Position numbers and translations under genes: made by a program. A stretch of 38,566 bases of DNA from Bacteroidales bacterium (GTDB lineage Bacteria > Bacteroidota > Bacteroidia > Bacteroidales > P3): NCBI GenBank assembly GCA_016280915.1, contig JAEEHQ010000145.1, forward strand, positions 1 to 38,566, written 5' to 3'. Numbering within the stretch: position 1 is the first letter of the stretch; each line of letters starts with the position of its first letter. Positions 2,800-38,245 of this stretch are shown here, one piece after another. The notes beneath the pieces are model-generated. The model had not been told where the DNA came from and did not search any database. It worked only from the letters and a program-made list of their open reading frames with translations.

Positions 2800-4587
2800 A
2801 TGATTGAAAACAAACTCCAACAAGCAGTTGCTACCGCACTAAAGAATCTATATAATATTGAAGCCACTCCTGAGTCGGTGGTTCTACAAACTACTAAGAA
2901 AGAATTTACAGGTGATTATACCGTAGTTGTCTTCCCCTATGTCAAACAAGCCCGCAAGTCTCCCGAAATGGTGGCTAACGAATTGGGCGCTGCAGTTAAA
3001 GAACTAGTGTCGGAAGTGAGTGATTTTAATGTAATTAAAGGTTTCCTCAATTTTGCCATAGCCGACAGTTATTGGGCAGCCTTCATTGGCGAAAATCGCA
3101 ATAATCCCAACTATGGACTTAAAGCTGCTTCTGCAGATGCCAAACCCATCGTGGTGGAATATTCTTCCCCCAACACCAACAAGCCTCTCCATCTCGGCCA
3201 TATCCGCAACAACCTACTGGGTTGGTCGGTGAGTGAGTTGCTTGCTGCTAATGGTGCCAACGTCAAGAAGGTCAACTTGGTCAATGACCGTGGCATCCAT
3301 ATTTGTAAATCCATGTTGGCATGGCTAAAGTATGGCAATGGCGAGACTCCTGAGAGCTCAGGCATGAAGGGTGACCATTTAGTGGGCAAGTACTATGTCG
3401 AATTTGACAAGCATTACAAAGAGGAAGTCAAGCAGTTGATGGCGCAGGGTATAGAGGAGGAAGAGGCTAAGAAACAGGCCCCTCTGATGATTGAGGCCCA
3501 GCACATGCTAAAAAGATGGGAAGAGGGTGACCAAGAGGTGCGTGATTTATGGAATAAGATGAACTCATGGGTTTATGCCGGTTTTGATGAGACCTATAGT
3601 CGATTGGGTGTCAGCTTTGATAAAATATATTATGAGTCCAATACTTATTTACTTGGCAAAGAGCTGGTGCAGAAAGGATTGGATATGGGCGTACTCTTCC
3701 GCAAGGAGGACGGTTCGGTGTGGTGCGACCTCACGGCCGACGGTCTTGACCAGAAACTACTCCTGCGCAAGGATGGCACATCAGTTTATATGACCCAGGA
3801 TTTGGGTACCGCCCTACTGCGTACCCGGGATTTCGATGCCAAACAACTTATTTATGTTGTTGGTAACGAACAGGACTATCATTTCAAAGTCCTCAAGCTG
3901 GTGCTTGGCAAACTGGGTTTTGACTGGGGAGAGAAACTCTACCATCTCTCTTATGGTATGGTGGAGCTGCCAAACGGCAAGATGAAATCGCGCGAAGGTA
4001 CCGTGGTTGATGCTGACGACCTCATCACCGAGATGGAGGCCACGGCCGAAGAGATGAGCCGCGAGCATGGCAAGAACGACGGTATGAATGACCAACAGCT
4101 CAAAGAGCTGTACCATATGTTGGCTTTGGGTGCCCTCAAATATTTCATCCTCAAAGTCGACCCTGTCAAGAACATGCTGTTCAACCCTGCCGAGAGTATC
4201 GACTTCAATGGCAATACCGGCCCCTTCATCCAGTATACCCACGCTCGCATCCGTAGCATCGTCCGCAAGGCCGAAGAACAGGGCATCCACGACCAAGAAC
4301 CTGTTGCCATTGCCACCCTTAATGAGAAAGAGCGTGCAGTCATCAAAAGTCTGCACAGCATGCCGGGAATCATTGCTTCAGCAGCTGAGAATTATAGTCC
4401 TGCCATGATAGCCAACTACGCATATGAACTGGCCAAGAACTTCAACAGCTTCTATCAGGACACCCCCATCCTACGTGAAGAAGATACCGCTGTTAAGACT
4501 TTCCGTGTGCAGCTCTGCGCCGTTGTGGCACAGGCTATTAAGAACACTATGCACATCCTCGGCATCGACGTTCCGGAGAGGATGTAA
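2800..4587 (+). CDS. argS: Arginyl-tRNA synthetase
   Basis: A 595-residue class I aminoacyl-tRNA synthetase that charges tRNA-Arg in the cytoplasm. The ATP-binding HIGH motif appears as HLGH (131-134), followed by the arginyl-specific pattern IRNNLLG. The KMSKS loop appears as KMKSREG (K394). The roughly 100-residue N-terminal domain typical of ArgS precedes the catalytic core, and the C-terminal helical DALR-type anticodon-binding domain ends in the expected hydrophobic pattern. Length is normal for the family. The ATG at 2800 follows the promoter directly and matches the usual N-terminus. A 61-bp gap separates it from the thioesterase gene, so the two may be co-transcribed. Confidence 0.97.
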   Translation: MIENKLQQAVATALKNLYNIEATPESVVLQTTKKEFTGDYTVVVFPYVKQARKSPEMVANELGAAVKELVSEVSDFNVIKGFLNFAIADSYWAAFIGENRNNPNYGLKAASADAKPIVVEYSSPNTNKPLHLGHIRNNLLGWSVSELLAANGANVKKVNLVNDRGIHICKSMLAWLKYGNGETPESSGMKGDHLVGKYYVEFDKHYKEEVKQLMAQGIEEEEAKKQAPLMIEAQHMLKRWEEGDQEVRDLWNKMNSWVYAGFDETYSRLGVSFDKIYYESNTYLLGKELVQKGLDMGVLFRKEDGSVWCDLTADGLDQKLLLRKDGTSVYMTQDLGTALLRTRDFDAKQLIYVVGNEQDYHFKVLKLVLGKLGFDWGEKLYHLSYGMVELPNGKMKSREGTVVDADDLITEMEATAEEMSREHGKNDGMNDQQLKELYHMLALGALKYFILKVDPVKNMLFNPAESIDFNGNTGPFIQYTHARIRSIVRKAEEQGIHDQEPVAIATLNEKERAVIKSLHSMPGIIASAAENYSPAMIANYAYELAKNFNSFYQDTPILREEDTAVKTFRVQLCAVVAQAIKNTMHILGIDVPERM

Positions 4588-30334: not shown

Positions 30335-30343
30335 TATCTTTGC
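30335..30343 (+). promoter_or_regulatory. -7 promoter element of ncRNA copy A
   Basis: TATCTTTGC, a perfect -7 consensus; transcription would start around 30350, just before the structured RNA. The -33 region is T-rich without a clear TTG. Confidence 0.65.
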
Positions 30344-30349
30344 AATCGG

Positions 30350-30566
30350 TTTGAGAGAAATATCTCATGCCGAAAGTTTTTTTAATAGAAGCGTTATGCT
30401 TCCTTGTACTTGAGAACGTCGGAACTTTTCAAGTGGAATTATCAAGGTTGTATAATGGCTTCACGCTTATAGCGTGGGCTGTTATTACATTTGATAATTC
30501 AGGTTTCCGACGACCTTCAAGTACAATGTGAGACATACAGACCCACGCTTCTTTTGTATAATGCTG
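30350..30566 (+). ncRNA. Structured RNA element, copy A (family unrecognised)
   Basis: A roughly 210-nt element that folds into a long interrupted hairpin. Pairings: a 5' hairpin TGAGA/TCTCA; closing stem 30387-30394 with 30545-30552 (8 bp); 30404-30413 with 30517-30526 (10 bp); 30417-30424 with 30505-30512 (8 bp); 30436-30445 with 30491-30500 (10 bp); and an apical stem CACGCT/AGCGTG (30462-30467, 30471-30476). The closing stem is followed by TTTT, as in a terminator. A second copy at 37505-37707 keeps every stem with compensatory changes. It lies just upstream of the FISUMP lipoprotein gene, so it could be an independent small RNA or a leader. General shape recalls 6S RNA, but I cannot confirm that. 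Confidence 0.8.
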
Positions 30567-30603
30567 TTGCGGGTCGGACGGTATAAATGTTATTCATTAG
30601 ACA

Positions 30604-31107
30604 ATGAAAAAACTGTTTTTATTAAGTATTATGTGCCTGATGGCACTATCGATGATTGTATTGCCCGCCTGTACGAGGGAAGAAGGCGAGGTGTCTGGAA
30701 ATTATATCGATTTGGGGTTGACTAGTGGAACAAAGTGGAAAGCAGTCAATGAGAAGAATACAGCAGATGCCGAGTTGGATTTATACACATACGACGAGGC
30801 AATTGCAGCTTTCGGTAACAATTTGCCGAGTTATGACCAGTGGATGGAACTTATCAATGAATGTAGTTGGACATGGACAGGTATGGGGTACAAAGTGGTT
30901 GGATCTAATGGAAAGAGTATCGTGTTGCCCGCCTCGGGCTACCGCGGCCAAGGTGGTGTCTACGACGTGGGGTACCGCGGCTGCTATTGGTCGTCTACGC
31001 CCGAAGGCTCCGCTTACGCGTGGTTCCTCGACTTCATTTCCAACGGAGTGTTCGTGAACGACTACTACCGTGACTACGGTCGGTCCGTCCGGCTTGTCAA
31101 AGATTAA
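30604..31107 (+). CDS. FISUMP-type lipoprotein, possible DGR target protein
   Basis: A 167-residue lipoprotein. The signal peptide ends in the lipobox LPAC (Cys 23). The mature protein has the FISUMP/DUF1566-like C-type-lectin-type fold: GNYIDLGLTSGTKWKAVNE, then YTYDEAIAAFG, LPSYDQWMELINECSWTW, LPASGYRG, CYWSSTP and the terminal YGRSVRLV. The last 45 codons are unusually rich in NNC codons (tac, gac, ttc, aac) and GC-rich compared with the AT-rich first half. That is the pattern expected when a variable region is copied by a diversity-generating retroelement from an AAC-rich template. No reverse transcriptase or template repeat is in this window. It could equally be an ordinary paralogue of this large surface-protein family. 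Confidence 0.8.
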   Translation: MKKLFLLSIMCLMALSMIVLPACTREEGEVSGNYIDLGLTSGTKWKAVNEKNTADAELDLYTYDEAIAAFGNNLPSYDQWMELINECSWTWTGMGYKVVGSNGKSIVLPASGYRGQGGVYDVGYRGCYWSSTPEGSAYAWFLDFISNGVFVNDYYRDYGRSVRLVKD

Positions 31108-31218: not shown

Positions 31219-31285
31219 AATACGATGTGAAAAACATGTCTAATGAAAAAAAATGCGTATTTTTGCAAAAATTTTCAGTAGGATA
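31219..31285 (+). repeat. Left direct repeat flanking the ATPase gene, with promoter
   Basis: About 67 bp matching 32592-32656 at high identity with small gaps; the shared end ATTTTCAGTAGGATA is perfect. This copy includes a good -7 element TATTTTTGC (31258-31266), placed to transcribe the ATPase gene, and ends at the first base of that gene's start codon. Confidence 0.8.
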
Positions 31286-32591: not shown

Positions 32592-32656
32592 AATACGATG
32601 CAAGATGTATGTCTATTGAAAAAATGCGTATTATTGCTAAAATTTTCAGTAGGATA
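32592..32656 (+). repeat. Right direct repeat flanking the ATPase gene
   Basis: About 65 bp, the counterpart of 31219-31285. Its promoter-equivalent reads TATTATTGC, one base off the consensus, and no plus-strand gene follows, so it is probably a decayed copy of the promoter region. Confidence 0.75.
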
Positions 32657-37470: not shown

Positions 37471-37503
37471 TTTGGCTGAATGGGAAAAACTTCGTAATTT
37501 TGC
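37471..37503 (+). promoter_or_regulatory. Promoter of ncRNA copy B
   Basis: TAATTTTGC (37495-37503) with TTTG (37471-37474) 20 bases upstream. Transcription would start around 37510, at the first hairpin of the RNA. Confidence 0.7.
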
Positions 37504-37504
37504 A

Positions 37505-37707
37505 AACGATTTCAACGGTGAAATCACGAAGCGTTATGCTCGTTCTGTGTATGGGAACGTAGGAAACTTCCATCGAAAAGCAGAATCTGTGTAATGGCTT
37601 ACGCTGTATAGCGTGGGCTTTCTGCATCTTCTCTTTTCAAGGTAATTCCTACGACCTCCATACAAGAAGGGTGTACGGCACCACGCTTCTTTTATTGTAT
37701 AATGCTC
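37505..37707 (+). ncRNA. Structured RNA element, copy B (family unrecognised)
   Basis: The second copy of the element at 30350-30566. A 5' hairpin GATTTCA/TGAAATC precedes the closing stem 37528-37534 with 37683-37689 (7 bp). Further stems: 37548-37554 with 37658-37664 (7 bp, extendable with one bulge); 37558-37565 with 37646-37653 (8 bp); GAAAAG/CTTTTC (37575-37580, 37633-37638); CAGAA/TTCTG; and the apical ACGCT/AGCGT (37601-37605, 37610-37614). Conserved primary sequence: GAAGCGTTATGCT, TAATGGCTT, TAGCGTGGGCT, CCACGCTTCTTTT and TGTATAATGCT. The helices differ from copy A mainly by paired changes. It ends about 55 bases before an unrelated membrane-protein gene. Confidence 0.8.
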
Positions 37708-37762
37708 AACGGGGTGCGGGAGAGGACAGAACTGATGAGCCGACAGAAAACGGCATATTATT

Positions 37763-38245
37763 ATGAATGAATATGTGCAAAAGTACCTAGAAAAACGCGA
37801 TGCTCAAAGAAAAGAAGATTTAATGAGGCAGGCACAACAACAGATGAATAACTTGCGAATAGGAGTAAGAGAATACCCAAAAGATTCTGAATATGACCGC
37901 AATGATTATCCATATTGGGACACTGAGAAGGGAAAGCATTATCGATACAATGTGGGAGAAATATCGGAAGAAGAGTGCAGACTCCTTGTTCAGGATACTC
38001 CTGAAGAAAAGATATTTGTAGAAAAAAATGAGAGAAGTGTTTGGTATGTATTTGCAACATTCATATTAATTCTTTCATCCATTGGTCTACTTGTTTTGAG
38101 TATTTTTAGTATTACTGAAGAAACTGTGTTGTATTTTCTTATAGGATTGGGTGAGTTTTTCGTGGTGTCGCTCTTTTGTGCAATTGTACAATTACTTGCG
38201 AACATTAAACAAGATGTTGACAATCTATTATCAATGCAAGAGTAG
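37763..38245 (+). CDS. Hypothetical two-helix membrane protein
   Basis: A 160-residue protein. The N-terminal 90 residues are hydrophilic and charged, with a likely coiled coil (YLEKRDAQRKEDLMRQAQQQ). Two transmembrane helices follow (about 94-113 and 121-146) and then a short tail. No family is recognised. The topology suggests a cytoplasmic domain anchored by a hairpin of two helices. It is preceded by ncRNA copy B and followed by an inverted repeat. Codon use is more AT-rich than in the housekeeping genes, as might be expected for an acquired gene. Confidence 0.65.
   Translation: MNEYVQKYLEKRDAQRKEDLMRQAQQQMNNLRIGVREYPKDSEYDRNDYPYWDTEKGKHYRYNVGEISEEECRLLVQDTPEEKIFVEKNERSVWYVFATFILILSSIGLLVLSIFSITEETVLYFLIGLGEFFVVSLFCAIVQLLANIKQDVDNLLSMQE

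Follow-up and report, generated by a model that had tools for sequence, protein, structure and literature searches.

The window analysed here, the whole stretch of 38,566 nucleotides, contains two copies of one folded element, A and B, both on the + strand and each followed by a gene. In copy A a -7 promoter-like box, TATCTTTGC, can be read at 30335..30343, and the minimum free energy fold places a 5′ hairpin at 30346..30373. The core, defined by folding and covariation and made up of the closing stem P1, the inner helices and an apical hairpin, occupies 30388..30551; its P1, GAAGCGT/ACGCTTC, pairs 30388-30394 with 30545-30551. By complementarity and by the rule of the family, GACCC (30540..30544) is the 5′ partner of a docking helix, the 3′ partner of which is GGGTC (30571..30575), 28 nt before the start codon. 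The gene that follows (30604..31107) encodes 167 aa, by eye an exported lipoprotein. This product had no Pfam match, and its end is one we take to be FISUMP-like; it aligns at 38% over 92 aa with a 308-aa protein behind another copy (L360), and relatives of the gene were not found in viral contigs.

Copy B is arranged in the same order, with the box TAATTTTGC read at 37495..37503, a 5′ hairpin (GATTTCA/TGAAATC) placed by the minimum free energy fold at 37508..37525, and a core at 37528..37689, likewise defined by fold and covariation, comprising P1, inner helices and apical hairpin. P1, again GAAGCGT/ACGCTTC, pairs 37528-37534 with 37683-37689. The docking partners are GCACC (37678..37682) and GGTGC (37713..37717), the latter 45 nt before the start codon of a gene at 37763..38245. 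Its product of 160 aa has hydrophobic stretches by eye and scores 17.9 bits against Pfam Frag1, for which the cut-off is 30.3.

The original prediction described two loci sharing one element behind separate TAnnTTTGC promoters and closed by GAAGCGT/ACGCTTC, and each of these parts was located in both copies where it had been claimed. The closing stem, two inner helices and the apical hairpin are common to A and B, and 3′ of the closing stem both have a third hairpin and then the gene. The paired helix changes, CGTCGGAA/TTCCGACG in A against CGTAGGAA/TTCCTACG in B and GTACTTGA/TCAAGTAC in A against TGTATGG/CCATACA in B, were also confirmed. The minimum free energy is -83.9 kcal/mol for copy A (z -8.7) and -73.5 kcal/mol for copy B (z -5.9), values that none of 200 dinucleotide-preserving shuffles equalled in either case. 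What had been presented as a matter of two loci, however, is a phylum-wide family, and the closing stem does not as a rule run into TTTT: the U-run after P1 is not conserved (e.g. CTTCGTGG, CTTTGTAC, CCTTCGTA), for which reason a terminator reading of the element's end was rejected.

Between the two copies a 38-bp promoter-like repeat, 95% alike, occurs at 31248-31285, before an AAA_14 gene, and at 32619-32656, 1.37 kb further on. The segment 31196-31299, before the AAA_14/DUF4143 gene, is 89% identical to another genome, G028. The core of copy A is identical to that of a G028 copy with a different 5′ hairpin; between the two genomes the AlkZ-related gene next to it has 68% DNA identity, and different genes are carried. 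Since 31196-31299 matches G028 and the intervening genes do not (one here, five in G028), what lies between two conserved flanks is a different cargo in each genome. A G119 copy in front of another gene is almost the same as copy B (0.99, with no core difference).

Size and spread of the family

Copies A and B belong to a large RNA family without an Rfam entry. The source genome has four copies. The third, on contig C73, was found by BLAST and lies on the strand opposite to the BLAST match, because the element is nearly palindromic. The fourth, on C85, is more distant and was found as a covariance model match; by eye this copy (G000:C85:3080-3242, L356) is closer than copies A-C to a distant, class-level type with a CTGGTAAA/TTTACCAG helix.

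With copy B as query, BLAST at E<=0.01 had matches in 33 of 61 related genomes, in some of them confined to short pieces. A covariance model built from 29 copies matched 112 of the 119 genomes of the genus at E<=0.001; its match numbers per genome are inflated, because the near-palindrome also matches the opposite strand, a doubling by which 80 loci gave 136 matches. When 295 genomes of the order and 392 of the phylum were searched at E<=1e-9 with a further model, built on 84 copies, 110 of the former and 36 of the latter matched. Four of these 36 belong to the same order (source genome included), 31 to other orders of the class and one to another class. An exact pattern was found in at least 120 stretches of named genomes; among the matches listed (80 titles) are Bacteroides, Phocaeicola, Prevotella, Leyella, Xylanibacter, Butyricimonas, Alistipes and Sunxiuqinia, and none of these 80 is from outside Bacteroidota. 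A text pattern recovered 16 of the 18 loci of a distant draw, some printed on the opposite strand, and the stem, apical hairpin and docking loop are visible by eye in L310, L313, L316, L319, L321 and L323. Further homologues with conserved pairing, sought with the exact pattern and with covariance models in genomes of the genus, order and phylum, are present in large numbers. A pattern scan of viral sequences gave six stretches and phage records gave one; plasmids gave none with copy B as query and seven with a B. gallinarum copy. In Bacteroides muris the Rfam small RNA BTncRNA_FopS lies at L066:4662-4728, 0.4 kb from a copy of the element.

For the counts that follow, 196 candidate copies were reduced to 187 with a good 5′ end (167 distinct), and the addition of copy B and removal of near-duplicates gave a set of 134. 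One candidate, L050_+7357, lies inside a gene and is probably a false copy; it is included in the 134-copy tree-based null, the first docking count and the 861:100 count, and was left out of the 132-copy docking count and the 165:125 count. The 84-copy alignment holds 84 of 86 selected copies, without L097 and L149.

At gathering score Rfam had no match on the window, and below it (E<5) each copy had one chance-level match, E 0.87 and 2.8 (snoR64a, MIR2871). Eighteen named loci gave seven matches, none on the element, and 17 of the 18 distant loci gave one unrelated tRNA only at E<=0.5. With no family reaching threshold on the element in either the window or the homologues, the earlier description of it as an unrecognised family holds as far as Rfam goes. 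The suggested parallel with 6S RNA fared less well: neither the Rfam 6S models nor Bacteroidales-1 matched, and the element is multi-copy and lies before genes. 6S-flavo and Bacteroidales-1 are RF01685 and RF01693 (PMC2864571), and Table 1 of that paper gives two Bacteroidetes motifs without an Rfam number, GUCCY-hairpin and Bacteroides-2, the latter reported from one sequenced organism. The family is new to Rfam, with the Bacteroides-2 and GUCCY-hairpin motifs outside the comparison. In the parts of the literature covered, including those of PMC2864571, PMC7366714 and PMC10989005, no description of the element was recognised; supplementary 5′ UTR tables could hold it.

Conserved structure and a strand with two partners

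Two copies alone cannot prove covariation, and the claim that covariation argues for selection on RNA structure therefore needed the sets of 84 and 134 copies. In the 84 diverse copies 93.6% of the helix cells of the nested structure are paired, a share that falls to 39-51% when the partners are slid as a control, and there are 423 double-change cells compared with 133 in shuffles, the structure tested being derived from this same alignment. Two of the five measures are weak, with 20 pairs showing any double change against 17.3 in shuffles (31 of 500 shuffles) and 71 pair types against 67.1 (38 of 500). In the 134 copies, 15 column pairs lay above every value of 20 replicates of a tree-based substitution null; 13 are helix pairs and two are off-by-one echoes of one helix. 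The RNA structure is supported beyond chance, and the shuffle test and the tree-based null both sustain the original argument from covariation.

With helix pairs chosen by Watson-Crick share alone, G-U cells outnumber A-C cells by 165 to 125, an excess so modest that it does not prove selection at the RNA level; over the 45 predicted pairs before selection the count was 734 to 150. A strand count of 861 G-U to 100 A-C was dropped as strong evidence because it is biased, the pairs having been picked with G-U counted as pairing and three columns being fixed wobble pairs. The consensus fold has -58.7 kcal/mol on the sense strand and -46.4 kcal/mol on the complement. Invariant sequence blocks lie in the apical part and in P1. 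The apical GCGTGG could pair with a terminal CCACGC in most copies, both being nearly invariant, and a variable position beside them is A-T in 93, G-T in 13, G-C in 1 and T-T in 14 (n = 121).

Two further features are absent from the original prediction, a second pairing within the core and a docking helix. In the former, columns 35-37, part of the long helix, have additional partners in columns 51-54, a short way downstream. In the 84 copies this local hairpin is 92.0% paired and has 52 double-change cells compared with 12.9 shuffled; none of 500 shuffles was as high on pairing, double changes or covariation score, and on the weak measures, pairs with a double change and pair types, 165 and 244 of 500 were. 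Column 36 follows both partners: columns 36/174/53 read GCC in 37 of the 84 copies and AUU in 31. The local hairpin and the long-range helix share bases and exclude each other, unless a base triple forms. Covariation at shared bases is a mark of a switch and is evidence for one here, although a base triple could mimic the two-partner signal; that possibility aside, the element has the mutually exclusive conserved folds looked for in a riboswitch or other cis-regulatory leader.

The nucleotides just before the 3′ strand of P1 (e.g. GUUCC) are complementary to a loop about 20-30 nt further on (e.g. GGAAC). This docking complementarity is present in 99 of 132 copies (shuffle mean 48, max 59), in 57 when Watson-Crick pairs only are counted (mean 14.5, max 24), and under a first rule in 100 of 134 (mean 58, max 70). 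At each of two inner docking positions six pair types occur. Under the rule used docking fails in 33 of the 132, and L019, L025 and L109 have no docking partner. A stem of at least 4 bp could close the docking loop in 95 of the 99 copies; since 50 shuffles reach a mean of 80 and a maximum of 88, this stem is moderately supported.

Leader position, carried genes and recombination

A co-directional reading frame of at least 60 aa starts 25-140 nt downstream of 150 of 159 copies, at a median of 52 nt; the divergent direction gives 83 of 159 and shuffled DNA 13. Upstream, a TAnnTTTG -7 box is found in 145 of the 159, and a second -7 motif between core and start occurs in just 4 of the 150. The element thus has the position of a leader, behind a promoter and 5′ of a co-directional gene. 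The earlier idea of a discrete small RNA is at odds with these counts and with a docking partner that lies beyond the supposed end of the RNA. To judge from the sequences, a stand-alone small RNA is unlikely and the element is most likely the leader of an mRNA. The stretch from leader to start codon contains a further recurring segment, GTTGCGCCCGACACGTATTAGGG or a variant of it, in L006, L013, L016, L024 and L027, among others; other copies of the genus have CTGATGAGCC...ACGGC instead.

Plasmids carry the same arrangement. In Bacteroides uniformis the mobilizable plasmid pBUN1 (NZ_AP019725.1, L351:3001-3254) has the leader directly before annotated blaMUN-1, with 51 nt between the element and this beta-lactamase MUN-1 gene. 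A DUF4433 gene begins at +15 nt after the match on a Parabacteroides distasonis plasmid and a hypothetical gene at +53 nt on one of B. finegoldii; the gap to the following gene is 381 nt at the plasmid match H8, and the record of H7 is unannotated at the match. About 1.4 kb from the element at one plasmid locus there is a recombinase gene, and at another an IS256 transposase follows the carried gene. The plasmid records have no feature annotated on the element, which says little, as the annotation table is without RNA genes.

The carried genes are mostly unrelated and often exported. Their products are small (median 187 aa, n = 139), and by a crude rule 84 of 139 have a signal-like start; among 581 reading frames nearby, not all of which need be genes, 182 do (p=4e-10). 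By blastp 157 carried proteins fall into 97 clusters, the largest of 14, 13 and 10. For Pfam 119 of the 139 representatives were used; they contain 80 families, none in more than four proteins, and PADLOC gave 30 families among the 119, each of the 25 listed matching one member. Neither Pfam nor PADLOC gave a pathway common to these 119, which is a usual, not a strict, mark of riboswitch-controlled genes. A recurrent exported family with a FLGIPVDG-type motif accounts for 14 of 164 carried genes (L060, L109 and 12 others); it has no Pfam domain listed and 5005 relatives in the protein database at E<=1e-5. Relatives of the copy B gene have the leader, by text pattern, at 14 of 18 readable loci. 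L331, L332 and L342 are without the standard leader, and L337 (G110) has a short variant, in which the closing stem and docking partner are kept, and the interior is different and much shorter.

Cores appear to recombine apart from genes, to judge from pairs of similar copies, metagenome misjoins being possible. Homologous genes (blastp) were found in 4 of 17 leader pairs at least 95% identical and in 15 of 95 pairs at 90-95%; one of the four is the window's own locus fetched twice, another (L145/L158) probably likewise, and some further pairs at the higher level likewise contain a single locus counted double. Where cores are at least 93% identical (70 pairs), the gene regions are less than 70% identical in 60 and at least 0.70 in 10. 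Median identity in these pairs is 0.95 in the core, 0.83 just upstream (random 0.60), 0.77 in the 3′ hairpin (random 0.60), 0.66 around the promoter (no random value for this region) and 0.605 in the gene region (random 0.59), so that neighbouring parts of the leader are partly shared and the genes mostly not. In L063/L096, L002/L184 and L042/L077 identity drops right at the ends of the core, and L082/L044, from B. gallinarum and a Porphyromonadaceae MAG, have cores 99% and flanks about 75% identical. Many loci come from short-read metagenome assemblies, in which a 165-bp repeat can be misjoined; isolates are among them, e.g. B. gallinarum L082, Leyella lascolaii L042 and Xylanibacter rarus L079, and the pairs are pooled irrespective of isolate status.

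One site, beside a DUF5674 gene and followed by a gene that is presumably gcvT-like, was compared across genomes. The leader is present there with two other genes in G002 and G068 and, in G027, with a gene whose start resembles that of the copy B gene; the site is empty in G078, and in G021 the promoter region remains but the RNA does not. The scan used a loose pattern that also gave many false RNA places, and only places with a promoter or previously established (G027) were retained. At this site in G067 (L251:600-1060) there is a strongly diverged element, which keeps GCGTGGACT, CCACGC and the long helices, has a changed 5′ end and may represent a sister family. Most copies are dispersed, but in G094 and in G146 a pair of leader-gene units is arranged head to tail. 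In G146:C18 (L361:1724-1899, 3173-3345) the two cores agree fully in their 5′ halves and diverge in their 3′ halves, and the second one pairs poorly; it is either a half-and-half recombinant or an assembly error. In the pair alignments no target duplication was seen by eye at the core ends, and inverted ends are present.

A possible switch and its relation to known systems

The element may be the leader of an mRNA that sets translation by switching between two folds and has been recombined onto unrelated genes, a reading that, taken whole, we consider about evenly poised between right and wrong. Transcription would start behind the TAnnTTTGC box, and leader and gene would form one transcript. 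Its order would be a short 5′ hairpin, the core of about 165 nt closed by GAAGCGT/ACGCTTC, and a small docking hairpin with a loop that would dock back onto the base of the core. One strand of the core could pair with a nearby strand, in a local hairpin that could form first co-transcriptionally, or with a distant strand in the long helix, and the two folds would interconvert. A signal common to many cell states may select between them, and the choice would open or close the docking hairpin near the start codon, translation being the step presumably controlled. Since such a core would work with any gene, recombination, including between species, could have placed it before many unrelated accessory genes. 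A leader of this kind would explain the position, the docking loop, the two folds and the indifference to cargo. Counted against it are the want of a pathway shared by the carried genes, unlike most riboswitches, the 33 of 132 copies in which docking fails, the two weak covariation measures, the derivation of the structure from the alignment on which it was tested, the base triple that could mimic two partners, and the relatives of the copy B gene that are without the leader (L331, L342).

The fold might instead be static, a stabiliser or insulator that would secure expression of any gene behind it, bound by a housekeeping protein or the ribosome and not switching. The varied cargo would fit such a general-purpose expression module, and the invariant apical and P1 blocks could be a protein site; two exclusive helices kept by compensatory change would be superfluous in it, although a base triple could mimic them, and a constitutive leader appears unlikely. 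The free-standing small RNA of the original prediction, 6S-like or antisense, acting in trans and lying before genes by chance, would account for the promoter, the strong closed fold and the U-run that follows some copies. The orientation and spacing of genes at 150 of 159 copies, a docking partner located past the closed fold, the unconserved U-run, the multiple copies and the lack of a 6S match in Rfam all tell against it, and we regard it as quite improbable.

A further possibility is that selection on RNA is secondary and that the 165-bp core moves or recombines as a DNA element in its own right, with GAAGCGT/ACGCTTC as its end repeats. Several observations are consistent with this: the 70 pairs of near-identical cores, outside which the medians fall, to 0.605 in the gene region, the loss of identity right at both core ends (e.g. 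L042/L077, L063/L096), the empty site in G078 that is occupied elsewhere, the head-to-tail units of G094 and G146, and the modest G-U excess of 165 to 125. Sharp core edges need no transposition, however, because recombination tracts end where homology ends, and the half-and-half core of G146 fits homologous recombination rather than transposition. The orientation and spacing to promoter and gene are fixed, the fold is more stable on the sense strand (-58.7 kcal/mol) than on the complement (-46.4 kcal/mol), and target duplications were not seen by eye; we rate this explanation as rather unlikely. The switching leader explains the two-partner strand that a static fold would not require.

Rfam has no entry for this large candidate class of regulatory RNA, which in a dominant gut phylum stands before many genes, among them one annotated for drug resistance on a Bacteroides plasmid. 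The near-identical cores before unrelated genes make the horizontal spread of a regulatory RNA directly testable. If the switching leader senses a common signal, discovery of that signal would expose a shared control of an accessory, largely exported gene pool. More speculatively, and with a low likelihood, the family could be a phylum-wide RNA module for gene capture, its switch-like core spreading horizontally and putting accessory genes under one common control. The cargo would then range from lipoproteins to toxins and a resistance gene, and the module would be an RNA-level counterpart of the DNA-level integron platforms.

6S RNA, 6S-flavo and Bacteroidales-1 are RNAs of about 170-200 nt in Bacteroidota that form a long irregular hairpin, and the element resembles them in size, shape and phylum. 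It differs in having no Rfam match, in being multi-copy and placed before genes, and in its docking hairpin downstream. Riboswitches with heterogeneous regulons are known, the cyclic-di-GMP GEMM type among them. The element is like these in its 5′ position, its conserved fold with loop docking and alternative pairing, and its several copies per genome before varied, often exported genes, and it may work like a riboswitch. It differs in that it has no Rfam match and no known ligand, its genes are more diverse, and near-identical cores lie before unrelated genes; with no known ligand or shared pathway, membership of the riboswitches is unproven. Miniature inverted-repeat elements share with it inverted ends, dispersed copies and near-identical cores in unrelated places. 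The element differs from them in its compensatory changes in several helices, in keeping one orientation relative to promoter and gene, and in that no target duplication could be made out by eye. Integron gene cassettes differ from the element, which lies 5′ of the gene with its own promoter, folds on the sense strand and is mostly dispersed; in both, interchangeable and unrelated accessory genes stand beside a conserved folded sequence, and the head-to-tail units of G094 and G146 may be a further parallel, to tandem arrays.
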